A DNA stretch of 64,000 nt from the NCBI RefSeq assembly GCF_945890115.1, contig NZ_CAMDCK010000001.1, forward strand, positions 124,001 to 188,000. The letters are read 5' to 3'. This DNA comes from Sphingorhabdus sp. EL138 (GTDB lineage: Bacteria; Pseudomonadota; Alphaproteobacteria; Sphingomonadales; Sphingomonadaceae). The stretch's first letter is position 1, and the number at the start of each line of letters is the position of its first letter. Position numbers and translations under genes: made by a program. The notes below the pieces were generated by a model, which did not search any database, was not told the origin of the DNA, and worked only from the letters and a program-made list of their open reading frames with translations. Below are positions 7,797-42,479 of the stretch, piece after piece.

Positions 7797-7885
7797 GTTC
7801 TTATAGGCAAAAATCTCCGCGACTGGGTGTTATTGGGCAACTTTTGCCGCCCTGCACAACACTTATCGGTTCTGATCCTATAATC
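7797..7885. promoter_or_regulatory. Symmetric divergent flbT/flgE promoter region with central palindrome
   Basis: GGCAACTTTTGCC (7836-7848, centre 7842) lies midway between two diverging -10 boxes: CCTATAAG on the minus strand (hexamer 7800-7805, centre 7802.5) and CCTATAAT on the plus strand (TATAAT 7879-7884, centre 7881.5). Both centres are 39.5 bp away. No sigma-54 GG-N10-GC arrangement is present in the palindrome. This is the cleanest case of the promoter layout repeated across the cluster. Binding by the FlbD-like protein is inferred. Confidence 0.7.
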
Positions 7886-14492: not shown

Positions 14493-14945
14493 TTAACTGC
14501 CCAACCCTGCGGCCTCGACGCTGTGTTTCGCAAGCTCTACCTGAGCGCGCAAGCTGATTTCGCGCATGAGCGCTTGAACCGAAGGATCTGAATGTTCACC
14601 TTGTTCAGAAAGCCATGATGTCAGACCCTTCAGCGCGCTTGGGTTCCGGTTCCCTTGCAAAGCTTCAGTATGCAAGCTTTCGAGATGGCCGAGCCCCTCG
14701 TCTGCATCCTTTACCAAACGCTTTCTGTGTTCCCTGTCTTCGCCGCCGCCAGCAATGGTCATGAGCATGTCGACAGAGAATGTGCCCCGCGCCGCGGCGG
14801 CCGACCTTATTGTGTGCGTGCTTACTGCCGAAGCAGTAGGATCACTAGTTGGTGCAAAAATTTCCGGCGCGGCTTTTGAACCGGTACGGCCGACTGCGGT
14901 TGCAGGCGGGGTAAAAGCAAAAGGATTGGGAGCAGTAATACGCAT
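14493..14945 (-). CDS. fliX: Class II flagellar assembly regulator FliX
   Basis: 150 aa. The N-terminus (MRITAPNPF), the central GTFSVDMLM and the C-terminal DPSVQALMREISLRAQVELAK are characteristic of FliX. In Caulobacter FliX binds FlbD and couples its activity to assembly of the basal body. A FlbD-like protein is encoded at 24 kb, so the pair is present, although that partner is catalytically degenerate. Divergent from flgI. The ATG at 14945 lies 7 nt after a TATAAA box and no Shine-Dalgarno site fits, so it may be read from a leaderless mRNA. Confidence 0.9.
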   Translation of the reverse strand: MRITAPNPFAFTPPATAVGRTGSKAAPEIFAPTSDPTASAVSTHTIRSAAAARGTFSVDMLMTIAGGGEDREHRKRLVKDADEGLGHLESLHTEALQGNRNPSALKGLTSWLSEQGEHSDPSVQALMREISLRAQVELAKHSVEAAGLGS

Positions 14946-17300: not shown

Positions 17301-17906
17301 ACAAAGGCGTCTAGGACCAATCAGCATCCACTTGGTCGGACATATTCCACGCACAAGAGCACCTTTCGTCTGGAGAAGATAGGGTGCAACATTTGCCTCC
17401 TAGCTTGCCCACGACGATATCCGCAGATGGGGGGGGCTAATATGCGGCCAATCGGAGCGGACACAGATCTGCGATCTGGGGGGCAATGGGGGACATGTTC
17501 GTCGACGCAATCAACCTAAAGCGCGTTGCGGCGAGAATCACCTGCGACACCGTCCGATGATTCGCATGAGGCGGACCCAGCGGCAGGAAAATTTGGTCAA
17601 ATCGACCAGCTAAAGGCAAATGTTGCCGCACAAAATCAGAAATCAGCGATATTTGTCCTCAATGTGAGAAGATATTGTAAGCCGACTAACGTAACAATTA
17701 TGTTGCCGCTGGAAGTAAAAATACGGCGTAGCGACGCAAATCTAAGACAAATTACACTCATTATGGCACTTTATACCGCCATAATGAGTGTAATAACCAA
17801 GCCATATCTGATAATATTACTTCAATTTGATGATAATAACTGTAGTAGAAGTACAAATAATTGCTTTTAGACAAGCTTACCAAACCGTCAAAAGTAGGTT
17901 AGCAAA
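17301..17906. other. 606-bp gap between flaF and the sigma-like gene
   Basis: The left half has GC-rich sequence with G-runs (8 G at 17429-17436, 6 G at 17478-17483, 5 G at 17488-17492). The right half from about 17640 is AT-rich and holds the perfect inverted repeat at 17751-17794. A 114-codon open frame across it (17526-17870) has no plausible ribosome site or protein-like composition and I do not call it. It probably contains the control region of the sigma-like gene. Confidence 0.5.
17751..17794. repeat. Perfect 17-bp inverted repeat upstream of the sigma-like gene
   Basis: ATTACACTCATTATGGC is followed by a 10-nt spacer and then its exact reverse complement. No T-run follows on either strand, so it is not a standard terminator. 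It lies 113 bp upstream of the gene at 17907. Operator, mRNA structure or recombination site are all possible. Confidence 0.85.
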
Positions 17907-18863
17907 ATGTCTAAAGCGATTTCCAATCTTGAGTCACTGGTGCAAAATGTCATGGCCTGTTTACCAGATGAGGCAGGTGATTTCGCCTCGCCTGCCCAAC
18001 GTTCGGCTTATAACCGAGGGTTCGAGAGACTTCTTCGCGCTCTTCGCCCGCGCATCAGCTATTTCATCCGCCGTTACGGGCTTCTCGGTCATTGGGAAGA
18101 TGCCGAACAAGTCGGTGCGATGGCCGTCCATCGCGCGATCGCCGGCTACAACCCGGAGAAAGCGCAGTTCACCACATTTGTGAATTGGCAAATCAGGGGC
18201 GATATGCAGGGCCTTAGATACACAGTGATGGTTGACCAGCGCGCACCAGCCAAAAAGGTCAAAGCGTCAACTGTTTCCCTGCAGTCGCTGATGTCGAAAG
18301 CGGATGGCCAGGATGAGTACCAGTTTGATATCGAAGATGATTCTGCCCTTGCCATGGTTGAGCGTTCTGCAGAAAACCATCTTGCAAAAAAGACTATGAA
18401 CGCCCTTCTCGATAGCGTCACAAAGCGCATGACCGAGGCGGGGACGCGCGATCTGCTTTGCAAGCAGGGACCGACCGCCACTCGGAAGCCGGGTGTTGCT
18501 ATGCTAAAGGTCAACTCGATTGATCCCGATCAGCTGCGCCAGCTGGAGGTATGTGTTGCCGAAAGCCGCAAAGTCATCATCAGGAAGATGTTCGAAATGG
18601 ATGCTGCTGGCAATAGCGACGTAGCGAGCGAGCCGAGCCCCGAGCGCGCCCGACATTTGGCCAGAAAGGCCGCTGCAATGATGCGAGAAATCATCGCAGA
18701 GGAAAGCCAGTTTGCGCTTCTCGCCGATAGCCTGCCGCCACTGGATGTTCTCAAAACGCGTCGTCCGGCCAATCGTAGCACCGCGCGGGGACGTCAGGCA
18801 AGTGTAGCGAAGCTGCCCGTGCGCAGCTCCGTCCCAACGAAAAATGTGTCCCTTGCCATTTGA
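17907..18863 (+). CDS. Divergent sigma-70-family-like protein without obvious region 4
   Basis: 318 aa. Residues about 30-115 resemble sigma region 2: RPRISYFIRRYGLLGHWEDAEQ, AMAVHRAIAGYNPEKAQFTTF and VNWQIRGDMQGLRYTVMVDQR follow the core-binding and -10-recognition helices. The following SLQSLMS stretch recalls the region 3 linker. The C-terminal half is helical and basic but I see no region 4 helix-turn-helix that would read a -35 box. A promoter class with a strong -10 and no -35 would fit such a factor, and that is what the flagellar units here show; the link is inference. The next gene overlaps it. It is not a recognisable FliA. Confidence 0.65.
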   Translation: MSKAISNLESLVQNVMACLPDEAGDFASPAQRSAYNRGFERLLRALRPRISYFIRRYGLLGHWEDAEQVGAMAVHRAIAGYNPEKAQFTTFVNWQIRGDMQGLRYTVMVDQRAPAKKVKASTVSLQSLMSKADGQDEYQFDIEDDSALAMVERSAENHLAKKTMNALLDSVTKRMTEAGTRDLLCKQGPTATRKPGVAMLKVNSIDPDQLRQLEVCVAESRKVIIRKMFEMDAAGNSDVASEPSPERARHLARKAAAMMREIIAEESQFALLADSLPPLDVLKTRRPANRSTARGRQASVAKLPVRSSVPTKNVSLAI

Positions 18864-19713
18864 TCAGGCCCAGATAAATGCCACGCGAAGTTTCGGCCTG
18901 CCGACCAGCGCCCTGAAATCTATGGCGCTGGTCGGCGTTGGCTTGCACTCCCTTGATCAATTGACCGTCCTTCAAGCGGGTAAGCTGCTCGCGCTCGAAG
19001 CTACCTTTGTGGAACAGTGCAGCCTCAGTTCGCTTGTGGTGCACTTGGACCGTCCGACGGTTATTGTCGTGAGCTTCGAGGACAATTCCATCGGCGAAGT
19101 GGCCGAAGACCTGGCAGTCACAATGTTTTCAGCCACGCAACCGATCGGCCTGATTGCAGTGAGCCAAGAGCGGCAAGATCTCCATAGGCTTATGGATCTG
19201 GCCCCGAGCGCTATACGAAAAATGGCGCACCCATTATCTTATTCCGAAACGTTGATGCACTTCATTTATTATTACGAGAATTTATTCAGCGAAAAATTGA
19301 TCAGAAGCCAGAAAAACGACGATACAATAAAGCAATTTATTCAGAATAGTTTGAAGAGAGAAAAATTTCATACATTCTGCAACTGGCTTCGCCTTATCCG
19401 CAAGGCACGTGAATCCTTCTTCCCCGTTGAATGGCTAAGCGATCCTATTTGGGACATCATGATTGCCCTTGCTTTGGCCAAGGTTGAAGGGCGCATAACG
19501 CCAGTATCAAACATCGGGCTGGAGGCGAATGTTCCCGTCAGCACGGCACTGCGAAAGCTCAAGGAAATCGAGGCACGGGGCTTCGTCAATCGCTGGCCTG
19601 ATCCCAAAGACAAGCGACGCGAATATGTCGAATTGTCTGAATTGGGAATGCAAAAATTTTCGGAGTTTGTTGAAGTTGTATGGGACAGATGTGCAGAAAC
19701 TGGATTTATGTAA
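18844..19713 (+). CDS. Winged-helix (MarR-like) regulator with receiver-like N-terminus
   Basis: 289 aa. The C-terminal 90 residues have a MarR-type winged helix: SDPIWDIMIALALAKVEG, VSTALRKLKEIEARGFVNRW and a wing DPKDKRREYVELSELG. Residues about 55-125 alternate strands and helices (LVVHLDRPTVIVVSFED, PIGLIAVSQERQ) and look like a degenerate receiver. The frame overlaps the sigma-like gene by 20 nt, so the two are probably co-translated and act together. The start is uncertain: ATG 18844, or TTG 18853 or ATG 18922 further down. The position between flagellar operons suggests a flagellar or motility regulator. Target unknown. Confidence 0.7.
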   Translation: MCPLPFDQAQINATRSFGLPTSALKSMALVGVGLHSLDQLTVLQAGKLLALEATFVEQCSLSSLVVHLDRPTVIVVSFEDNSIGEVAEDLAVTMFSATQPIGLIAVSQERQDLHRLMDLAPSAIRKMAHPLSYSETLMHFIYYYENLFSEKLIRSQKNDDTIKQFIQNSLKREKFHTFCNWLRLIRKARESFFPVEWLSDPIWDIMIALALAKVEGRITPVSNIGLEANVPVSTALRKLKEIEARGFVNRWPDPKDKRREYVELSELGMQKFSEFVEVVWDRCAETGFM

Positions 19714-24020: not shown

Positions 24021-25352
24021 TCAGGCGATTGGGATTCCAGCCTCGACGAAGCTCTTCAGCTTGTTGCGCATGGTGCGCACGGAGATCCCTAAGATTGAGG
24101 AAGCCGCAGTGCGGTTTCCGCTACAATGCTGCAGCGTCTGCAGGATCAAATCCCGCTCCACGTCCGCCATGCACCTTCCCACCATGTTGCCCGACAAAGG
24201 TGTCGGCGTTGCTGCAGGTTGCAGGAGCAAAGGGGTACCATCCGCAAGTGTCAGATGCTCGGGTGCAAGTTCGCGGCCGCGCGAGAGAATAACGCCGCGC
24301 AGCATCACATGCTCAAGCTCCTGAACATTGCCCGGCCAAGGTTGCACTTGGAGAATGGCCAGTGCTTGTGAAGAGACCGGGCGGATGTCGAAACCGTTAA
24401 GGCGCGCAAAGCGCTCTGCAAAATACTGTGCCAGCACAGAGGTGTCCTCGGGCCTGTCACGCAGCGGCGATATTTTGATGTTTACCAAACTGAGTTGCTG
24501 ATACAGCTCCTCAAGAAAGCTGCCTTCATCTACCCGTTGGGCTAGGTCTTTCTGCGACCCTGCAACAAGACGGATATCAACATTCTGATATATATCGGTA
24601 CCAAGACGCCGTATCCGCCTAGTTTCGAGTAATTCGAGCAGGCTGGCCTGGACCAAGGGATCAAGCGCATCAATGTTACGAAGGTAGATTGTGCCACCGC
24701 TTGCCTGTTCAATTCTGCCTGCCCTTTTGGCAACTGCCCCATCGAATGCGCCCGGCTCCTGACCAAAAAGTTCCGCCATGATATGCTCGGCGTTGGCCGC
24801 TGCGCAGTTCACCACAACAAAGCGCCCGCCGCGGCCAGAGAAATTGTGAACGATCCGAGCAAGCATCTCCTTGCCATTCCCGCGCTCACCTACCAGAAGT
24901 ACCGGCAAAGGCGACTTGCTCATGGCAAGCGCGAAATCGAGTGATTGGCGGAAAGGTGCGGACACACCGACAACATCCACCGACCGCATTGAGACAGACA
25001 GAATTGCTGCCCCAATAAGGTCTGCATCTGGTGGAAGCGAAACATAATCCTGCGCACCAGCGTGAATGGCCGCCACAGCTTGTTCCGCTGGTGCATCGAC
25101 ACCGCACGCAATCACCGGGACCAGCATACGCTCGGCACGCAATTGAGCGATGAAACGTGCAACGTCGCACCCGACGTCGACCATAACCAAATCAGCTCCG
25201 ACTTCGCGAAGTATCGCCACAGCATCATCAGGAGATGGAACGATCTGGACGGCTGCGCCGACTGTGTCAGCCAGCTTAGCTGCAGTCCTAAACTCAGCTC
25301 GATCCGAACCGACAAGGAGCATCCGGACCGGGACTTTAAGGCCGAACGACAT
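24021..25352 (-). CDS. flbD: FlbD-type flagellar regulator with degenerate receiver and AAA+ motifs
   Basis: 443 aa: receiver-like domain (10-120), AAA+ domain (about 128-370), Fis-type helix-turn-helix (CSGNRTAASSILGISVRTMRNKLKSF, 410-435). Walker A is present (GERGNGKE, 155-162). Other motifs of sigma-54 activators have changed: GAFTGA is GAFDGA (201-206), the Walker B acidic pair is Arg-Asn (225-226), both arginine fingers are Leu280 and Gln286, and the sensor II Arg is Gln344. The receiver lacks the paired acidic residues (SD at 16-17) and the conserved Lys (VSLPP). It probably binds DNA without remodelling sigma-54. It sits in the fliF operon, whose promoter has a palindrome, so autoregulation is likely. 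FliX is the expected partner. Confidence 0.88.
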   Translation of the reverse strand: MSFGLKVPVRMLLVGSDRAEFRTAAKLADTVGAAVQIVPSPDDAVAILREVGADLVMVDVGCDVARFIAQLRAERMLVPVIACGVDAPAEQAVAAIHAGAQDYVSLPPDADLIGAAILSVSMRSVDVVGVSAPFRQSLDFALAMSKSPLPVLLVGERGNGKEMLARIVHNFSGRGGRFVVVNCAAANAEHIMAELFGQEPGAFDGAVAKRAGRIEQASGGTIYLRNIDALDPLVQASLLELLETRRIRRLGTDIYQNVDIRLVAGSQKDLAQRVDEGSFLEELYQQLSLVNIKISPLRDRPEDTSVLAQYFAERFARLNGFDIRPVSSQALAILQVQPWPGNVQELEHVMLRGVILSRGRELAPEHLTLADGTPLLLQPAATPTPLSGNMVGRCMADVERDLILQTLQHCSGNRTAASSILGISVRTMRNKLKSFVEAGIPIA

Positions 25353-25711: not shown

Positions 25712-27317
25712 TCAGCCACTGGCGGAACACGTTGGCGGCGGCAGTCGGATCAGTGGCAACACGGCTACCCAACTGGCTAATTACTGCGGCTTTCTTCGTC
25801 GCGGCGGCCTCTTCGGCCATACGGAGGGCATCTCCCCTCGCCTGATCGCTTAAGGCGTTCTGGGCGTCGGCAAATACGGCGTTGAGGCTTGAATCGCCCT
25901 CAAGAGGGCCCGCTGCGGCCAGCTGAAACTGCCCTTGTTCGCTGCCACCGCCGCGGCTGCGCAGGATGCGCAGGACCACAATACCCGCACCCGCGATGAT
26001 GATGAGCTTCAATACGCTGATGATCTGATCCATATTGATGCCGAACGGGAGCGCCGTGCTGACCTCTGCTACGTCCTCGGCCTTTGCGAATGCCATGCTT
26101 TCAACAATCACACTGTCGCCTCGCTCCGTGACGGCACCTACGGAATTCTCGACGAGACGGGTGACCTGCTGGATCTGCGGCTTCGGAACTCCGGCTTTAC
26201 CGCCATCAATTGTGACAGCGACTGTAAGGCGCTTCACGCTTCCGGGCGCATTGACCAACACTTTGCGGGTGACACTGTTCTGATAAGTTGTGTCCTCTGA
26301 AGTCTGGTTGCTCTGGGTGGCGCGACTGCTGCCCGCAGCGCCGTCGGTGGCGTTTTCGGGAAGCTGGTTCGACACAGTCGTTCCCGAAGGCTGCGAATTC
26401 TGACCCTCGGTATTTTGGTCGGCGGATTCTACACTGACTTGACGTTGAATGACCTGATTTTCGGGATCGTAGACTTCGGTTTCTTCGCGGGTTTGAGACC
26501 GTTCGAGTTGAACTGAAACCTCGGCACGAACCTTTCCTGCCCCATAAATTGGCTCCAACAAGGATTCGATCTGTGAGCGCAGGCGCGCGGCGACCGCAGT
26601 CTGCTGCTGCTCCAAGTCGCCACCGCCGTCCGACCCAGGTTCCCCCGCCCGCGCCAGCAAGGCACCCGTCTGATCCACGATAGAAACATTGTCCGGTAGC
26701 AGCTCGGGAACCGCCGATGATACCAAGTAGCGAATGGAATTGATCTGTTCCGGCTTCAGCCGCCCAAGCGTTTTGAGCGTTACAGACGCGGTCGATTTTC
26801 GCGGTTCACTTGCAAAGAGTTCCCGCTCGGGCATCACGATCTGCACGCGAGCGCCAGATACGGAATCTAGCGTCTGTATGGATTTGGCCAATTCACCTTC
26901 GATTGCGCGCGTTTCGTTCATTTTAGCGCGGGAAGCGGAGACGCCAAAAGGCTGTTCTGCATCTAGGACATCATAGCCTATCTTGGCGCCAAGCTGCTGC
27001 GAGGCGAGGCTCATGCGCAGTTCCGCCATGCGGTCGCGCGGCACCATGAGCGCCGTTCCATCTGCGGCCACCTGATAAGGAACATTCTGGCTCTTGAGCT
27101 GATCAGCGATCTGGCTCGCAGCGCCAGGTTCAAGGCCAGTGTACAGGAAGCCCATCTCAGGGGACGAGCCCCGAAAGGCGACATAGCCCAGCACTGCCAG
27201 CATTAAGGCAGCAACTGCCCCCATTACGAGGAGCCGCCCCCTGCCCATCTGTCCCAGAAAATTTAAAATACTTTGCACGCCTGGGTTATCCGTCCTTCGG
27301 TTTCTCTCTTCCATCAT
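25704..27317 (-). CDS. fliF: Flagellar MS-ring protein FliF
   Basis: About 537 aa. It has two transmembrane helices (LLVMGAVAALMLAVLGYVAF near the N-terminus, and IISVLKLIIIAGAGIVVLRIL near residue 435) and YscJ/FliF domains between them (FLYTGLEPGAASQIADQLKSQNVPYQ, ALMVPRDRMAELRMSLA). The C-terminal tail binds FliG. It is the platform on which the basal body is built. Start: the double ATG at 27317/27314 overlaps the putative -10 box TATGAT, so either that box is not used or translation begins later, for example at GTG 27278. First gene of fliF-fliN-flbD-flhA. Confidence 0.93.
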   Translation of the reverse strand: MMEERNRRTDNPGVQSILNFLGQMGRGRLLVMGAVAALMLAVLGYVAFRGSSPEMGFLYTGLEPGAASQIADQLKSQNVPYQVAADGTALMVPRDRMAELRMSLASQQLGAKIGYDVLDAEQPFGVSASRAKMNETRAIEGELAKSIQTLDSVSGARVQIVMPERELFASEPRKSTASVTLKTLGRLKPEQINSIRYLVSSAVPELLPDNVSIVDQTGALLARAGEPGSDGGGDLEQQQTAVAARLRSQIESLLEPIYGAGKVRAEVSVQLERSQTREETEVYDPENQVIQRQVSVESADQNTEGQNSQPSGTTVSNQLPENATDGAAGSSRATQSNQTSEDTTYQNSVTRKVLVNAPGSVKRLTVAVTIDGGKAGVPKPQIQQVTRLVENSVGAVTERGDSVIVESMAFAKAEDVAEVSTALPFGINMDQIISVLKLIIIAGAGIVVLRILRSRGGGSEQGQFQLAAAGPLEGDSSLNAVFADAQNALSDQARGDALRMAEEAAATKKAAVISQLGSRVATDPTAAANVFRQWLNG

Positions 27318-27363
27318 AGGAAGAAAGTGACACAACCGAGCACGCAGCTAGGCAAATTTTGCC
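27308..27363 (-). promoter_or_regulatory. fliF upstream region: perfect GGCAAATTTTGCC palindrome and CCTATGAT
   Basis: GGCAAATTTTGCC (27351-27363) is a perfect 13-bp palindrome in the fliH-fliF gap, the best operator match in the window. On the minus strand TTCCTATGATGG follows with its hexamer at 27313-27318, centred 41.5 bp from the palindrome, the layout seen at flgE and flbT. It precedes the operon that encodes the FlbD-like protein. Confidence 0.65.
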
Positions 27364-27374
27364 TTATGCCGTCA

Positions 27375-29198: not shown

Positions 29199-31895
29199 AT
29201 GATAGACGGTAGTTTTTTGGATGCGTTGGCTATGGCATTAAATGTCGCCTTTTCAGTGCTTGGAGGCTCATCATCTTCAGCGGATACATTTGCGTCGAGC
29301 AATTCCCTCATGAGGTCGCTGGGGCAGAACCTGATAACGCCCAACGAACAACCTGAAACGGCGGCTGTCCTCAGGGCCAAGGCCCTGTTCACGGCTCCGG
29401 TTGTTCTTCCTCCTTGGCTTAATGCCAACGGCAACCCCGCTTCCTCGCCGACGCTGTCAGCCGTCAAGTCGCTCAAAACGTTCGTAGATCCCAAGGTTGA
29501 TTCAACCCTGCCGGTCGATCTGCAGCAGGCCTTTACCGCTTATCGTGCGCTTGACCGGATGAAAGTCCTTGCCAAGGCCGCGACATCGACTGGGCTGTCA
29601 GCCACAGAACGGTCCGCGCTGGATCAACAGTTTAAAAAGGGCCTTACCGACCTTCGCGGCTATCTTTCATCGGTTTCGCCTGATAAGTTGAAGATGTATT
29701 TCGATGCTCCAAGCAGGCTTGCGGTGTCAAGCGTGATCCCGCGCAGCACATTGCCAACGACCCATATTCTGAAGGGCGCGCTTCCCACGCGGACCACGGC
29801 GATCGACACTCTAACAGGAACCGAGGTCGTCAACCTGAACGTTGTGAAGGCCGGTCGTACCTATCAAGTGCAGACTGATCTCAGCACCATCGAACTGCCA
29901 CGCACGCTCGACAAGATCGCGCGGGCTTTAAACGCGGCGATTGCTGCGGTGCCTGCCACCGCCAGCAATGGCGATCCCGTTATGGGCAATGATGGGCAAC
30001 CCGTTGGGGCCTTATCTTCCCGATTTAGCGTCAAGTCCGTTGGCGACAAATGGGGTTTGGCTTTGCAGTCGGGGGCCGGTGAAGCGATTTGGGCAACGCC
30101 GCCCTCGGATCAAGACGGGCTCATGGTCATATCCTCCCGCCAAACCGGTTCGACAGTCGCCCCCGTGCAGATTGGCCGGATTGACAATCCATTAAATCAA
30201 GCCGCCTATCGCACCGCAGCTAGCCTGTCCGCCGTCGACTCCGCGGCCACTGCCCGCGCACAACTGACCAGCAGCAAGGCCGCCGAACTTCAGGCATCCG
30301 TCGATGTAAAGGGTGCCGTCACCGATGCTGATGGCAACACCTTCATGCTGGGCCAAACAGCCGGAGCGATGAACGACGTCTCTGCAGCCGGAATGCAGGA
30401 GATGTTCCTGCGCAAAGTAAACCCATCTGGTACATTGCTGTGGCAGCGCCCCATCCCGAATGCCTCGGCCACAGATGCAAGCGCCATTGCGCTCACGCCT
30501 TCGGGACAAGTGGTGGTTACGGGCAGTGTTAAAGGAGGCAAAGCCGAGGCCTCCGCCAGCAACGGCGACATCTTCGTCGCGCGCTTTTCGGCAGATGGCG
30601 CCGAGATGATGCGGCAGACGACGCAGATGGCCGGGGACCAGCGCCCCACCGCCGTGGCGACGGACGCTGCCGGCAATATCTTCGTCACAAGCAAGAACGG
30701 TTCGAACGGCAGCATGCTGATCAAATATGATACAACCGGCAATGAAAGCGCCCGAGCCACCTTTGCTAATTCAAACCTAGCCGCGGTTCAGGTTGGGGCT
30801 GATGGCCTGCCTATCGTTCTCACCCGCAGCGCGGACAGCACAAGCCTTGTCCAGCGGTTAGATGCGCAACTCAATGCAGTCGGCCAGCCGCTCAACCTCG
30901 GGGCAATGCAGCCTTCGGATATGGCAATCGGCCCGGACGGCACGATCGCGGTGAGCGGGACAGTCAGCAGCGACGCCACGGACAGCGATGTGGTCGTGTC
31001 ACTCATCGATGCCGGCCTGACAGGCGAGCGCAGGGTGACAATCGGCACTGCGGCAAGCGAAAGGGCGGACAGCCTGATCTACGATGACGGCTTCTTCTTT
31101 GTTGGAGGCCGAACGGCAGGTATTCTGGGCGAATATCGCACAGGTATCGTCGATGGCTTCGTCGCGAGGATTGATCCACAATCGGCACAAGTCGTCAGCA
31201 CCACCCAGTTTGGTAAGCCCGGAACCACCACTGGCCCTGTTGCAATCGCAAAATCTGCTGCCTCGTCGAGCACGCTCGAAACGCTAGGCCTAGGCACGGG
31301 GCGGCTCACCCCCAACGTCGAAAACCTGCTCGTCAACACCACGCGACTGAAGGTTGGAGACAGCTTCTCGGTAAATCTCGACGGCGGCAAATACAGCAAG
31401 ATTAGCATTGCACAGGGCGAGACAATCTCGTCTCTGGCCGCCAAAGTCCGCAAGGCGCTCGGTTCAAAGGTAGCTGTCACCACAGTGACCAGTGGCAATG
31501 GCCTCACCCTGCGCGTGCAACCAAGCACCGGTCATGCGGTTCAACTGCAGGCAGGGCCTGATGGTCAGGATGCCCTTGCCAAGCTCGGGCTAAAAGTCAG
31601 CCGGATTTATACCCCTCCGGCAACCTCGCCCAAAGATCCGGCGGTCGTGCCGGGCGGGCAATATGGCCTTAGTCTTTCCGATGCGATGTCCCTCGGATCT
31701 TTGGCCGATGCCAAGACCGCGTTAATGAAGGTAAGCTCTGCCGCATCGATGACGCAGACGGCCTATCGCACCCTGTACTGGGACGCGAACAAGGCCGCTA
31801 AGGTCGATGGAACCGGAGCCAATTCGGTCCTGTCGGCAAACCAGAAATCACAGTTGCAGCAATATCAGGCGGCTATCTACCGTCTGGGCGGCTGA
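29199..31895 (+). CDS. 898-aa protein with hook-IN-like domains and a beta-propeller, probable flagellar substrate
   Basis: No signal peptide or membrane helix. Residues about 200-310 and 705-795 look like the hook-IN motif of FliD, FlgK and flagellins: VVKAGRTYQVQTDLS with LDKIARALNAAI, and KVGDSFSVNLDGGKYSK with ISSLAAKVRKALGSKVAVTTV. Between them (about 365-680) are repeats of the SBBP beta-propeller kind, such as VTDADGNTFMLGQT, ATDAAGNIFVTSKNG and GFVARIDPQSAQVV. The C-terminus is helical. This suggests a protein exported through the flagellar channel to the hook-filament zone or cell exterior. It shares a promoter palindrome with fliG and runs into flgB. No FliD is present in the window. 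Function is unproven. Confidence 0.7.
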   Translation: MIDGSFLDALAMALNVAFSVLGGSSSSADTFASSNSLMRSLGQNLITPNEQPETAAVLRAKALFTAPVVLPPWLNANGNPASSPTLSAVKSLKTFVDPKVDSTLPVDLQQAFTAYRALDRMKVLAKAATSTGLSATERSALDQQFKKGLTDLRGYLSSVSPDKLKMYFDAPSRLAVSSVIPRSTLPTTHILKGALPTRTTAIDTLTGTEVVNLNVVKAGRTYQVQTDLSTIELPRTLDKIARALNAAIAAVPATASNGDPVMGNDGQPVGALSSRFSVKSVGDKWGLALQSGAGEAIWATPPSDQDGLMVISSRQTGSTVAPVQIGRIDNPLNQAAYRTAASLSAVDSAATARAQLTSSKAAELQASVDVKGAVTDADGNTFMLGQTAGAMNDVSAAGMQEMFLRKVNPSGTLLWQRPIPNASATDASAIALTPSGQVVVTGSVKGGKAEASASNGDIFVARFSADGAEMMRQTTQMAGDQRPTAVATDAAGNIFVTSKNGSNGSMLIKYDTTGNESARATFANSNLAAVQVGADGLPIVLTRSADSTSLVQRLDAQLNAVGQPLNLGAMQPSDMAIGPDGTIAVSGTVSSDATDSDVVVSLIDAGLTGERRVTIGTAASERADSLIYDDGFFFVGGRTAGILGEYRTGIVDGFVARIDPQSAQVVSTTQFGKPGTTTGPVAIAKSAASSSTLETLGLGTGRLTPNVENLLVNTTRLKVGDSFSVNLDGGKYSKISIAQGETISSLAAKVRKALGSKVAVTTVTSGNGLTLRVQPSTGHAVQLQAGPDGQDALAKLGLKVSRIYTPPATSPKDPAVVPGGQYGLSLSDAMSLGSLADAKTALMKVSSAASMTQTAYRTLYWDANKAAKVDGTGANSVLSANQKSQLQQYQAAIYRLGG

Positions 31896-35840: not shown

Positions 35841-35879
35841 CGTAGGGACCTTCCTGATCGCCTCTTTGTATGCGCATGC

Positions 35880-35913
35880 GGCAAATTTTGCTCGATGCTA
35901 TCCTATAATAGGA
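35880..35913. promoter_or_regulatory. fliL/flgF divergent region: GGCAAATTTTGCT and TCCTATAATAGGA
   Basis: GGCAAATTTTGCT (35880-35892, 12 of 13 matches to the palindrome) is followed by TCCTATAATAGGA (35901-35913), with plus-strand TATAAT at 35904-35909. The centres are 20.5 bp apart, half the 40-bp spacing elsewhere and thus on the same helical face. The palindromic -10 also gives TATTAT towards flgF. fliL would get a leader of about 45 nt. Confidence 0.6.
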
Positions 35914-38610: not shown

Positions 38611-40023
38611 CTAGTCGGGGAAGAACAGGTCAAATGTAACCGTATTTTTGTCATGAACGGCATAGGATATTGTTCCAAAATGCGCTTCCGCAACTTTTTT
38701 AATGAGGAATAAGCCAAGGCCAGAGCCCTCCGCTTTGGTGCCCGACCCGCGGACCCCCTGCATGAAAATATCCTCGTTCAATAAGTTGGGACCGTTCAGC
38801 ATATTGGTCACTGTAATAGAGGTGCCAAGCCGATCTTCACGCTGAATGATGTCGAGCTGTATTTCGCTGAAGGCCGGTGCATATTTCAGGGCGTTATCCA
38901 GAAGGTTCCGCAAGGCGATGCGGACAAGGATGGGGTCAATATCGGCGAAAATATGCGCGCCACCCGAACCCAATTTGATCCGATCCTGAAGGTCAATCGG
39001 GCAATCAAATTTCGCGAGTGAGGCCACATCATGTACGTTCATAGAACGGGTTGCGACCGGATTTTTATTCTCCAGCAACGGAAGGACCAAAATAGCGTTG
39101 GAAATCGACAAGTTGATAGCATCAAGGACGGCCTGCGCGCGACCAATCGCCTTCTTAAAATCCCTCGCCTTTGGGCTGTCGGGCTTGATTTCCGCGTCAA
39201 GTGCCTCAAGCGCAGCGTGGGCGTTGTTGATTGGCTGTCGGACATCATGCGTTAAAAGGTCCAACGTGAAAAGTCTTTCATCCGCGATGGCGGCTAAACG
39301 CTTTTCCTCCTGCTCCATCTCCACGCCAATTTCAAACATTCTAGCCGCGCGGCGGCTCGCAAAGCGGCGAGACCGGAGTGCACGTTCCCCAACCATGCCC
39401 ATAAAACCAACTTGTATGAAGACCCCTGTCACGACGACCAGCGAAAGCCCGAGGAGTGACATTTCAGGATCTATGCGGAACCCCGCCCCTTCCCGCCCTT
39501 CAAACAGCAGCCAACCGCGCCAAAGCATAATGACAGCGCAGGCGCACAGGCTCGAGATCAGAATGGCTTGGCCCCAAAGTCCCCGCCAGTATCGATTCTT
39601 AAAGCACACCCAAGCGGTCGCAAAAACGATAACGCCACCTGATGAATATCCTATCACCGACGGAAACCATCCATAAGGGAGAAAGGCAGAAGTGAGCAGC
39701 ATCACCACAGCAATGCCAAAAATAGGGAAGGACTTGTGGAAATGAACAATCTTGCCCTGACCACCCGCCAGTGAAAAATAGGGCAGCAAAAGGGATGATC
39801 CAGCCAGTATAAAACCCAGCAAATTATAGTCGCTGGCACTTTTCGTTTCAACAAATACCGATGGATTTATCATCGAGAGAGCCGACATTACATTGGCAAG
39901 CGCCCACAATACGGACAGTCTAATATTTTTAGATTTCAGGAAAAACAAAACAGCCAATGCAAATGCGTTTAAAATCGCAAAGTGCATAAAACTTATATTT
40001 TGTAATTGCTGTTCAATGGACAT
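38611..40023 (-). CDS. Membrane sensor histidine kinase (7-TM input, intact kinase core)
   Basis: 470 aa from ATG at 40023 (TTG 40029 also possible). About seven hydrophobic segments fill residues 10-215, followed by a helical linker, the H-box LTHDVRQPINNAHAALEAL with His259, N-box RNLLDNALKYAP and G-box EGSGLGLFLIKK. It is a complete histidine kinase and no known sensor domain is recognisable. It lies downstream of the response regulator and a related kinase, so all three probably form one system. Confidence 0.88.
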   Translation of the reverse strand: MSIEQQLQNISFMHFAILNAFALAVLFFLKSKNIRLSVLWALANVMSALSMINPSVFVETKSASDYNLLGFILAGSSLLLPYFSLAGGQGKIVHFHKSFPIFGIAVVMLLTSAFLPYGWFPSVIGYSSGGVIVFATAWVCFKNRYWRGLWGQAILISSLCACAVIMLWRGWLLFEGREGAGFRIDPEMSLLGLSLVVVTGVFIQVGFMGMVGERALRSRRFASRRAARMFEIGVEMEQEEKRLAAIADERLFTLDLLTHDVRQPINNAHAALEALDAEIKPDSPKARDFKKAIGRAQAVLDAINLSISNAILVLPLLENKNPVATRSMNVHDVASLAKFDCPIDLQDRIKLGSGGAHIFADIDPILVRIALRNLLDNALKYAPAFSEIQLDIIQREDRLGTSITVTNMLNGPNLLNEDIFMQGVRGSGTKAEGSGLGLFLIKKVAEAHFGTISYAVHDKNTVTFDLFFPD

Positions 40024-40074
40024 TTTCAAAAAGCCGTTGGTAAATAAATGAGTTATTTAATAAATATTTATATC

Positions 40075-41493
40075 TTACTGTCGAACGAGAAATATGATTT
40101 TCGTAACATCAGGATTGTCTGTCTCAATCGAACATTCTCCCAGATGATTTTGCGCGATAAGATTGGCAACGAAGAGCCCGGAACTGGTCATTTGAGGCGA
40201 AGCCCTGCCTTTCTCGCGAAGATCCCGCGACACGTCCATTTCTTCCATTTTTTGTGGGTTCATGTTGCCCGAAATCGTGAATAGGACACCTAGCTGCACG
40301 CTATCAACCGTCACCGAAACGGAAATATTCTCTCCCGCGTCCGCCACACTCAAAGCGTGCTCCAAAAGATTATGGAGCGCCACGCGCAAAAGGGTCGGGA
40401 CACATTCAATAAAGATGTGCTGGTCCGGCGGCGCCACGACAATCCGCTTCTGATTGGCATTACTGCAATCCAGCCGCGCCATTTCAAGGATTTCCATCGC
40501 GTCGGTTTGTTGCCTGAACCAGTTTTGGTCGTCCGCAACCAGCGTGCTGGCAACGATGACGTTGGACAAAGCGCGGGTGATACCATCCAATGAGCCCTTG
40601 GCCCGATCCAAGGCATAATTTGCGCGGTCCGAAATCGAAGGCAGCTTATCAAGGTCCGGTGTTATTGACTGGAGAGAGGCCTGCGCATTGTTGATCGGCT
40701 GTCGAACCTCATGCGTCAAAAGCTGGATTAAATCAAGGCGCTGTTTTGCTAGTTCGCGCATGTTTCGCCCGCGCTGTGCGAGGATAGCGGACCTTTGCCA
40801 AACGCGCACATTACGGCGATCCGCAAACTTGGCCTCCTTATCCCGCCGGTTAACCAGCATGCCAAAGAACCCGATCTGAAGGAAAATTGAAATGACAACC
40901 AAGATCTCCATCGCGCGGATTTGTAACATGGACGCGCCCACAAAAAGTCTGTCGTCACCCAGTGGGTAAGAGGTTAAGCCCCGCACTGCCAACGCAATAA
41001 TGGAGACGGCCATACCCGCGAGCACGATCCTGCGTCCTAATTCGTTCTCGTTTGCCCAATATCGATTTCGCAGTAAAGCGAGGAAGCAAGCGACCGAGAT
41101 GGCAACGCCGACCACGGAGGCAATGAGCAGTCTATACTCAGCCAAAGCGGGTGCAAGAGCGAACGGCGTTCCAACGACTGCTGCCATGGCGAATGCTTTG
41201 GACCAATAATCGTGCGTTAACCCTTTGGTACGAAAACTCAGGGCCACATACCGAAACAGCCCCCCAACTAAGGATGAAAAGCCAGCCCATTCTATAAGGT
41301 CTTGCGAGCTGAACACGGTCAGTATGTGTGGTGCGCCCAATATGGACAGGGCGGAAAAGCCGCTCGCGAGTTGCCAATAGAAGATATGGACCCGATTATT
41401 TGGCTGAAGCAGCAAAAGCTGGCAAAAGGCAAAGGCGACGATCTGGCCTAAATAGACGTAACCCAACGCGGCCAGATAGTCGCTGTTGCTCAC
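40075..41493 (-). CDS. Paralogous membrane histidine kinase with degenerate ATP-binding domain
   Basis: 472 aa from GTG at 41493, with GAGG 5 nt upstream, directly after the response-regulator stop. Same layout as the downstream kinase: about seven membrane segments to residue 215 and an H-box LLTHEVRQPINNAQ with His261. The catalytic domain is worn: the N-box reads HNLLEHALSVAD (the key Asn replaced by His), no D-x-G-x-G box is visible and the G2 box reads SSGLFVANLIAQ. It may be phosphorylated by its partner kinase or act as a regulator. Not truncated. Confidence 0.85.
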   Translation of the reverse strand: MSNSDYLAALGYVYLGQIVAFAFCQLLLLQPNNRVHIFYWQLASGFSALSILGAPHILTVFSSQDLIEWAGFSSLVGGLFRYVALSFRTKGLTHDYWSKAFAMAAVVGTPFALAPALAEYRLLIASVVGVAISVACFLALLRNRYWANENELGRRIVLAGMAVSIIALAVRGLTSYPLGDDRLFVGASMLQIRAMEILVVISIFLQIGFFGMLVNRRDKEAKFADRRNVRVWQRSAILAQRGRNMRELAKQRLDLIQLLTHEVRQPINNAQASLQSITPDLDKLPSISDRANYALDRAKGSLDGITRALSNVIVASTLVADDQNWFRQQTDAMEILEMARLDCSNANQKRIVVAPPDQHIFIECVPTLLRVALHNLLEHALSVADAGENISVSVTVDSVQLGVLFTISGNMNPQKMEEMDVSRDLREKGRASPQMTSSGLFVANLIAQNHLGECSIETDNPDVTKIIFLVRQ

Positions 41494-42204
41494 CTAAACC
41501 TCATCTGGCTTAGCAACTACCTCAACCGCTTCAGTGACTTGATAGCCAAACCCATGCAACGTCTTTAGCGGCGAAGGTTGATCTGTGACATTTTCTATCT
41601 TGCGACGGAGACGAAAAATTGCCGAATCCAAATTTCGGTCGTCAACGCTCTGCACAAGACCCGCAACTTCCGCGAGATCGTGCCGCGATACAGGGGTTGT
41701 CGTATCTGCACACAATCGATGCAAGATCATGAGCTCAATCGCGGTCAAGTCTACAATGGCACCGAGGGGTGAGACAAACTGCGACCGGCGACCATCCAGA
41801 GTCCAAGACGCGTTGCGAACCGACCGCATCGTCATGCGGCGGCAGACCGAGGCAATAGCATTATACACCTGATCGAAGCGGACGGGTTTGTTCACGAACA
41901 TGTCCGCGCCCGCCGTAAGCGCCGAATTAAATGCATCTGCGCCCATTCTGCCGCTGATCACCAAGATACCTGCAGAAGAATGTTGCCGGATCAGGGTGAT
42001 GAGGTCGACGCCATCAATACCGGGTAGACCAAGATCCAAAATGAAAAAATCAAATGCAGCCAAATCGCCTGACTTTAGCAGCGCCTCTGCCGCGCCGAAA
42101 CCCTTTGCCTCAAGGCCACGGGCATTTAGGAACTGACCAAGAAACTCAACGAAATCACCGTCGTCATCAACGATACAGATGTTTTTCGGCGCGTTCTCTA
42201 TCAT
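41494..42204 (-). CDS. OmpR-family response regulator
   Basis: 236 aa from ATG at 42204; the longer frame to 42324 runs through the tRNA. The receiver has paired acidic residues (CIVDDDGDFVEF), the phosphorylatable Asp (FFILDLGLPGIDG) and Lys (FVNKPVRFD). The C-terminal winged helix (LTAIELMILHRLC, DRNLDSAIFRLRRKIENV, LKTLHGFGYQV) is OmpR type. It is cotranscribed with the two kinases and is their likely output. Targets are unknown, but proximity to the flagellar cluster makes motility a possibility. Confidence 0.9.
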   Translation of the reverse strand: MIENAPKNICIVDDDGDFVEFLGQFLNARGLEAKGFGAAEALLKSGDLAAFDFFILDLGLPGIDGVDLITLIRQHSSAGILVISGRMGADAFNSALTAGADMFVNKPVRFDQVYNAIASVCRRMTMRSVRNASWTLDGRRSQFVSPLGAIVDLTAIELMILHRLCADTTTPVSRHDLAEVAGLVQSVDDRNLDSAIFRLRRKIENVTDQPSPLKTLHGFGYQVTEAVEVVAKPDEV

Positions 42205-42233
42205 GAATTCCCCAATCCGTTTAGGAGAAAGCT

Positions 42234-42308
42234 TGGAGCGGGCGAAGGGATTCGAACCCTCGACCCCAACCTTGGCAAGGTTGTGCTCTACCCCTGAGCT
42301 ACGCCCGC
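42234..42308 (-). tRNA. tRNA-Gly (GCC anticodon)
   Basis: The minus strand folds as a cloverleaf: acceptor GCGGGCG paired with CGCCCGC, D-arm GCTCAGGGGTAGAGC, anticodon loop with GCC (CTTGCCAAG), T-arm GGGTTCGAATCCC, and encoded CCA at 42236-42234. It lies 30 nt upstream of the response-regulator start on the same strand. Confidence 0.96.
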
Positions 42309-42479
42309 TCTGGCGGTCAGGCATCTAATTCCTGACAGGTGAGGCGCGCAGTTAGCATGGGGTATACCCCCCCGCAAGCCCCAATTGCCGCCTTTTTACC
42401 AAAAAGGGGGTAAAGCCTGTCTTGTGAAAGTCATCGTTTTACCCACATAGGGTATGAAACGAATCCTAAAGATTGGAGA

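Follow-up and report, generated by a model that had tools for sequence, protein, structure and literature searches.

The flbD gene considered in the present study lies at positions 24021..25352 of the minus strand in a 64,000-nucleotide stretch of DNA from Sphingorhabdus sp. EL138, which is called the window here. It is an open frame of 443 amino acids that adjoins fliN and flhA, and its product consists of a pseudo-receiver, an AAA+ remnant without catalytic residues and a Fis-type helix-turn-helix (HTH). The gene has the position expected of flbD, with fliN and flhA on either side and within a flagellar cluster of the Caulobacter type that includes fliX, flbT and flaF. The best curated family for the protein is Caulobacter FlbD (NCBIfam NF050807), with 438.7 bits over residues 10-442, which is below the 750-bit cut-off of that family. 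The HTH (24051..24167, minus strand; PF02954, 1.9e-12) is the conserved part of the protein and contains the FlbD-type pattern GNRT..A..LGIS.RT.RNK. In addition, the gene for FliX, the known partner of FlbD, was found by a Pfam match (PF10768, 2.8e-19) at 14493..14945 of the minus strand. After the flagellar cluster, at 38611-42324 (minus strand), there are two histidine-kinase-like genes and an OmpR-type response regulator.

The first-pass annotation had claimed that this FlbD lost the residues by which bacterial enhancer-binding proteins (bEBPs) act on sigma-54 and kept DNA binding, and the alignments bear this out at all six named sigma-54/ATPase positions. The GAFTGA loop reads GAFDGA (residues 201-206, 24735..24752, with Thr204 changed to Asp), Arg225-Asn226 replaces the Asp-Glu of Walker B (24675..24680, aligned with relatives), both arginine fingers are replaced in the stretch from Leu280 to Gln286 (24495..24515), and Gln344 replaces the Arg of sensor II (24321..24323), all on the minus strand. 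Walker A is retained as GERGNGKE with Lys161 (24867..24890, minus strand), and the HTH is retained as well, as had been said. Among the features of a sigma-54 activator, the protein therefore shows Walker A and the AAA+ fold and is missing GAFTGA, the Walker B Asp-Glu, the arginine fingers and the sensor II Arg. An AlphaFold2 model with a mean pLDDT of 84 has a normal AAA+ fold, which is about 1.4-2.0 A from NtrC1 and FlrC chains over about 240 residues. Misalignment of the motifs as the source of these changes was considered and rejected, since in the phmmer alignments listed the motifs align without gaps to three solved structures, ZraR (1ojl), NtrC4 (3dzd) and NifA (9qq6), and a slip is thereby excluded. 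The same annotation had counted a receiver without its acidic pair and Lys among the losses. These residues are indeed missing here, but they are also missing in the canonical rows, so receiver decay as a special loss of the window lineage was rejected; the atypical receiver of canonical FlbD is described as well in an earlier paper (PMC3096577).

Of 377 family genomes, 14 contain a full-length relative of FlbD (E up to 1e-60); the motifs are changed in ten of these and canonical in four. The nine other genomes assigned to the genus of the window yielded none. A scan in which each species was represented by one genome confirmed 565 stretches, and its best 80, which are the named loci, added 64 canonical loci and 16 from sphingomonads with changed motifs. 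In the rows that include these best 80 of 565 loci, the motif set was complete in 68/68 canonical and 0/26 changed sphingomonad rows, although the division into 26 and 68 was itself made by motif, so the counts describe two classes and do not test them. The 26 clade rows represent 25 genomes, as one protein is entered twice (L054 and L040). Within the same best-80-of-565 rows, the Walker B Asp is replaced by Arg and the GAFTGA Thr is lost in all 26, the Walker A Lys is retained in 25, the two arginine fingers in 23 and 24, and sensor II in 19. The FlbD of the window is the extreme case with six of six positions changed, as the other clade rows have two to four. Residue 182, perhaps the switch Asn of bEBPs, is Asn in the window and Glu in 23 of the 26 clade rows, again with the best 80 of 565 loci included. 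The loss of the motif set is a trait of this clade, which is one branch of the sphingomonads.

The changed genes, among them those of Sphingomonas sp. S2M10 (L055) and S. gei (L062), are under purifying selection. For 14 close pairs of this type, which we call pseudo-AAA+ (80-99% identity, L051 left out), the median dN/dS was 0.057 in the HTH and 0.165 in the AAA+ domain, and for the 40 closest canonical pairs it was 0.036 and 0.054 (38 and 33 usable pairs, respectively). The value of the AAA+ remnant is thus about three times the canonical one, and dN/dS is low in each of the three FlbD domains measured. The HTH is nearly invariant across the clade.

In ten relatives, the AAA+ domain is deleted altogether and a small "mini-FlbD" keeps the Fis-type HTH. 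These genes, which were recognised by reading the operons of relatives that share the cluster and had yielded no full-length match, occupy the slot between fliN and flhA in 10/10 mini genomes. The protein is a piece of the pseudo-receiver fused to the FlbD HTH (the receiver piece is almost absent in G168 and G215), and the length is 95-168 amino acids in eight of the ten genes, depending on the start codon chosen. With one mini-FlbD as the query, 25 of 374 family genomes proved to have flbD, namely four canonical, ten pseudo-AAA+, ten mini and one short canonical-like frame. The latter, L234, is a 71-residue frame with the C-terminus of a canonical FlbD in an 86% complete genome (G119), and it is possibly due to a frameshift or an assembly break. 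A profile search of 28 genomes positive for the sigma-like gene Sig described below gave, among the matches read, NtrC-type proteins and no mini-FlbD. Relatives of a protein of 898 amino acids, which is encoded in the window at 29199-31895 (plus strand), adjoining flgB and divergent from fliG, and which has no Pfam match, occur in many pseudo-AAA+ and mini clusters. The order of genes is fliG-fliH-fliF-fliN in 22 annotated clade loci, and fliF stands before fliG in 13 canonical loci.

Since the classes had been divided by motif, a tree of FlhA with 55 rows served as an independent check (one row, L123, was dropped because no FlhA was found in it). In this tree the pseudo-AAA+ and mini rows form one clade (support 100/98), and the four canonical sphingomonad rows branch earlier. 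The mini rows are themselves one clade (87/98), nested within the pseudo-AAA+ rows through a branch (96/91) to which the window's row does not belong; the placement of the mini rows as sister of L056/L065 is weaker (82/87). The order from canonical through pseudo-AAA+ to mini indicates that the motor was inactivated before it was deleted. Furthermore, as orthologues without any AAA+ domain stand in the same operon slot, what FlbD does in this lineage is not dependent on the sigma-54 motor.

Whether the genome has rpoN was a question of the first-pass annotation, and the answer is that it does. The genome, of 2.31 Mb and 99.95% complete, carries the gene, and it was found in 28 of 30 genome handles (two of which, G006 and G378, are one genome), the two misses being genomes of 67% and 80% completeness. 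Absence of rpoN as an explanation was therefore rejected, and the change concerns the FlbD circuit and not the loss of sigma-54. Four strong matches to the sigma-54-activator domain (PF00158) were obtained in the window genome, which are NtrC-like, PspF-like, NtrX-like and FlbD, where the first three names were assigned by reading motifs and neighbours. The NtrC-like and PspF-like proteins have intact motifs. The NtrX-like protein is without GAFTGA and retains Walker B and the arginine fingers. No second flagellar activator was seen among these strong matches.

The promoters were compared by counting exact sigma-54 boxes (TGGC-N7-TTGC) upstream of flagellar genes in 22 clade loci and 13 of the 67 canonical loci; L054 (identical to G006), L066 (on a contig of 6.5 kb) and the flanks of G211 and G307 were left out on the clade side. 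The canonical set had five boxes in 38 regions (9.7 kb; 0.18 expected), and the clade had none in 165 regions (35.7 kb; 0.58 expected). When one mismatch was allowed, there were 11 boxes against 10.9 expected in the clade, which is the chance level, and 8 against 2.5 in the canonical set. Across whole loci, the exact boxes and their number in shuffles were 50 and 36 for pseudo-AAA+, 25 and 14 for mini, and 161 and 65 for canonical. A looser sigma-54 score applied to all genes gave no difference between the groups and shuffled sequence, and the exact boxes at flagellar genes were used in its place. Hence, the -24/-12 promoters expected of a sigma-54 activator are, in their exact form, missing upstream of the flagellar genes of the clade, and typical promoters of this kind at the target genes, which the first-pass annotation had named as evidence against its own reading, did not come to light as exact boxes in any of the 165 regions.

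A de novo search for dyads in 150 intergenic regions of the clade gave CGGCA-N5-TGCCG as the top motif by enrichment; it occurs in 22 regions, from 19 of the 22 genomes, against an expectation of 0.15. We regard it as the putative FlbD box and take it to be 'ftr'-like, and no paper giving an ftr consensus was found in the open-licence literature searched. Before fliF, the box is exact in 18 of the 22 clade loci, has one mismatch in two and two mismatches in two, including the window. A -10-like sequence follows a fliF box by 10-15 bp in 20 of 22 loci, as exact TATAAT in 14 and TATAAG or TATAAA in six (in G276 the spacing was measured from a second, weaker box), with the window and G094 as exceptions. 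At fliL, the distance from box to TATAAT is 10-11 bp wherever both are seen, and L065 has TATATT.

The company of the box differs between the groups when sites of at least 16 bits are counted in 22 pseudo-AAA+ loci, five of the ten mini loci and 67 canonical loci other than G122. An exact TATAAT lies 8-16 bp from 25/59 boxes in 19 of the 22 pseudo-AAA+ loci (0.10 expected at random positions), from 6/17 mini boxes in five genomes, and from 0/96 canonical boxes (0.05 expected). An exact sigma-54 box lies 25-250 bp from 28/96 canonical boxes in 26 of 67 loci (2.4 expected), from 3/59 pseudo-AAA+ boxes (0.97 expected) and from 0/17 mini boxes. Two of the three pseudo-AAA+ cases share one sigma-54 box inside fliH, and the third is inside an unassigned open reading frame. 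These box counts are not independent events, as the genomes are related, and some of the sites used to train the weight matrix came from the same genomes, although TATAAT was not used in the training. Since the shuffled controls held few boxes (1, 0 and 4), controls at random positions were added. In a genome-wide search of four relatives, the composite of box and TATAAT gave nine sites, seven of them in the flagellar cluster and two (G018) on contigs outside it, and the reversed pattern gave none. The composite before fliF is retained in 9 of the 10 mini genomes with a spacing of 12-14 bp; the mini genome G262 has no fliF box. No -35 sequence is visible at these promoters (1.83 of 6 matches vs 2.26 in shuffles, n=36), and a CtrA-like motif is present upstream of fliF in 0/22 clade and 6/13 canonical loci. 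Reckoned from the hexamers, the box centre is at about -31 for fliL, -34 for fliF and about -49 for flgE, and over the -10 at flgC, where the putative box directly adjoins a -10-like sequence or overlaps with it. The architecture of proximal operators at apparent sigma-70-type promoters is accordingly present as far as sequence can tell.

In the window, the boxes are mostly weaker than those of the relatives. The candidate box upstream of the fliF-fliN-flbD-flhA-fliK-flgD run, AGGCAAATTTTGCCT (27350..27364), scores 20.8 bits, and a -10-like TATGAT was found by sequence scan 31 bp downstream of it (27313..27318, minus strand), an arrangement similar to that in G094. At the fliL-fliM promoter, a putative box of 14.5 bits by the weight matrix (35879..35893) is followed after 10 bp by TATAAT (35904..35909, plus strand). 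The divergent flbT/flgE promoter region contains the candidate box GGGCAACTTTTGCCG (7835..7849), with the TATAAT of flgE 29 bp downstream (7879..7884, plus strand). Another possible box (17614..17628) precedes the sigma-like gene by about 280 bp and has no -10-like sequence beside it, and a further one, before flgC, is just outside the window (L133:13059). The strict composite pattern has no match in the flagellar cluster of the window, and the one match of this genome is on another contig, within an unrelated reading frame.

FliX (PF10768) follows the AAA+ domain in its distribution, as it is present in 23 of 25 pseudo-AAA+, three of four canonical and none of the ten mini genomes. The two pseudo-AAA+ genomes without it, G094 and G157, have GAFTGA loops among the most eroded. 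In Caulobacter, FlbD is controlled by FliX and not by phosphorylation, according to one report (PMC3096577). The first-pass annotation had proposed that FliX controls the FlbD of the window by binding. The simplest reading of this co-loss is that the AAA+ remnant has probably been kept as the FliX-responsive part of FlbD, as the gene contents suggest.

A sigma-70-family gene of the flagellar cluster, called Sig here (17907..18863, plus strand), is present in 50 of 374 family genomes, and it accompanies 20/20 non-canonical FlbDs and 0/4 canonical ones. It may be the polymerase partner that enabled the switch of promoter type. The stretch resembling region 4 is eroded in the window genome. A view of Sig as a factor without region 4 was weakened, since a stretch resembling that region is found in the relatives, and weak matches to PF04545 were obtained for two of the three scanned. 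At 18844-19713 (plus strand), overlapping the end of this gene, there is a protein of 289 amino acids with a weak MarR-type winged helix. A homologue of Sig with an FlgJ-like neighbour is also found in G035, G314 and G358 (L166, L168, L172; L187-L193, L203-L205), and the stretches read around it, on both sides in G035 and on one side in G314 and G358, hold no other flagellar gene.

Other readings of these results have to be weighed. The box, a motif known from sequence only, might belong to another regulator while FlbD has a different set of targets. We hold this to be improbable, because the palindrome lies near sigma-54 boxes in the loci of canonical FlbD, at the frequency given above, and before fliF, which FlbD is known to control, where it is kept in nine of ten genomes whose FlbD is little more than an HTH. 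Dead FlbD subunits might instead join a competent activator, NtrC or PspF, in a mixed ring and act still via sigma-54; ATPase-dead subunits can occur in AAA+ rings, and the genome has rpoN and two activators with intact motifs. Yet the flagellar genes of the clade show no exact sigma-54 box in the 165 upstream regions, a mini-FlbD without AAA+ could not enter a ring, and the genome's strong PF00158 matches offer no second flagellar activator, which makes such a helper very improbable. That FlbD is decaying into a pseudogene without a regulatory role seems to us scarcely credible. The threefold dN/dS of the AAA+ domain and the stepwise loss that ends in deletion would agree with decay, but selection is evident in all three domains, the operators are conserved alongside a nearly invariant HTH, and the place in the operon is kept.

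The sign of the control is a closer matter, and a repressor or dual regulator is the main alternative to an activator. FlbD might have kept only the repressing half of its Caulobacter-like functions, so that boxes over the -35 or -10 would block RNA polymerase, with negative autoregulation of the fliF-flbD run. Caulobacter FlbD represses fliF at ftr4, as reported earlier (PMC3930126), canonical loci also have boxes upstream of fliF, and the spacing there is variable (10-15 bp), looser than would be expected of an activator that substitutes for the -35; the flgC box overlapping a -10-like sequence looks repressive as well. Against pure repression, the fliL boxes hold 10-11 bp to TATAAT or its one-mismatch form wherever both are seen, the CtrA-like element, which could be an alternative activator of fliF, is absent in 22/22, and promoters with no visible -35 look dependent on an activator. 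Hence we judge pure repression to be rather unlikely, though it deserves serious attention, and the geometry of the box, which varies between promoters, makes dual action possible. That FlbD substitutes for the -35 contact as an activator is the role that we hold most likely, with some reserve.

Taken together, the FlbD of the window, an orthologue by position and HTH, appears to belong to a lineage in which FlbD is no longer a sigma-54 activator and is, quite probably, a sigma-54-independent regulator at the -35 slot of sigma-70-type promoters. Independence from sigma-54 had been proposed before, and it gains support from the AAA+-less orthologues in the same slot, the missing exact sigma-54 boxes and the move of the box to the -35 slot of TATAAT. 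The proposed rewiring of the flagellar hierarchy is favoured likewise, since the candidate box is near sigma-54 boxes in canonical loci and at the TATAAT in the clade; with the motor parts lost and the probable DNA sites retained beside ordinary-looking promoters, the circuit appears rewired. In the mechanism that we propose, FlbD would keep its Fis-type DNA-binding domain and bind its presumed old operator, CGGCA-N5-TGCCG. At fliF and fliL, operators near the -35 of TATAAT promoters that have no -35 of their own would let FlbD control a sigma-70-family polymerase, which would read the TATAAT, from a proximal site, most likely by supplying the missing -35 contact; the geometry differs at flgE/flbT and flgC. 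The AAA+ remnant without catalytic residues would be kept as a regulatory module, probably where FliX makes contact and gates FlbD, and in the sub-clade where FliX and AAA+ are both gone, the small HTH protein would be left. The full course of events is a more tentative proposal, to which we give somewhat less than an even chance. It is that a sigma-54 enhancer circuit was converted in place to a proximal sigma-70-type circuit with the same DNA site, by bringing the operator into the -35 slot, keeping the dead AAA+ motor as a FliX-gated module and deleting it where FliX was lost, which would leave a small HTH activator.

Sigma-54-independent bEBPs have been known as single cases, and here one gene presents a series at one operon position, intact, catalytically dead and domain-deleted, in which the promoters change in step with FlbD. 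How an ATP-driven enhancer regulator is turned into an ordinary one becomes a directly testable question, and the series points to a further function of the AAA+ domain, the reception of the FliX signal. Annotations as "sigma-54 activator FlbD" in this sphingomonad branch are probably wrong. The FlbD of Sphingomonas sp. WG has been described as a sigma-54 activator (PMC8921679). In the portions of the open-licence literature searched, we found no description of an FlbD without AAA+ or independent of sigma-54, nor of a staged loss of the motor domain with a preserved operator.

Among known systems, proximal-site regulators on a bEBP scaffold are represented by the sigma-54-independent TyrR/HupR type, which has different regulons. 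The clade FlbD, as we read it, would be a regulator of this kind; for the TyrR/HupR type, we know of no staged domain loss with conserved operators. VpsR of Vibrio cholerae is a bEBP without GAFTGA that regulates sigma-70 promoters and is reported not to require ATP, and the NtrC proteins of Caulobacter and Rhodobacter capsulatus are bEBPs without GAFTGA that act at sigma-70 promoters, the former needing its Walker residues and the latter ATP binding (all from PMC10274813). Like VpsR, the clade FlbD is a protein of the bEBP family without GAFTGA that seems to act at sigma-70 promoters, but VpsR has no flagellar operon context and no FliX. To our knowledge, VpsR has no AAA+-less descendants. 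The clade FlbD resembles the two NtrC proteins in having lost the sigma-54 contact loop and in its apparent action at sigma-70 promoters, and it differs from them in that no row keeps the Walker B Asp and in the later deletion of the domain. The Caulobacter FlbD-FliX system, in which FlbD is a sigma-54 activator and a repressor at ftr sites (PMC3930126 and PMC3096577), shares with the present one the fliN and flhA neighbours, the Fis-type HTH, the atypical receiver, the fliX gene in the cluster and the box upstream of fliF. Unlike the canonical FlbDs, which have the motifs in 68/68 rows and boxes near sigma-54 promoters, the clade is without the GAFTGA Thr and Walker B Asp in every row (best 80 of 565 loci included in both sets), and ten of its members carry on in the same operon without any AAA+ domain.
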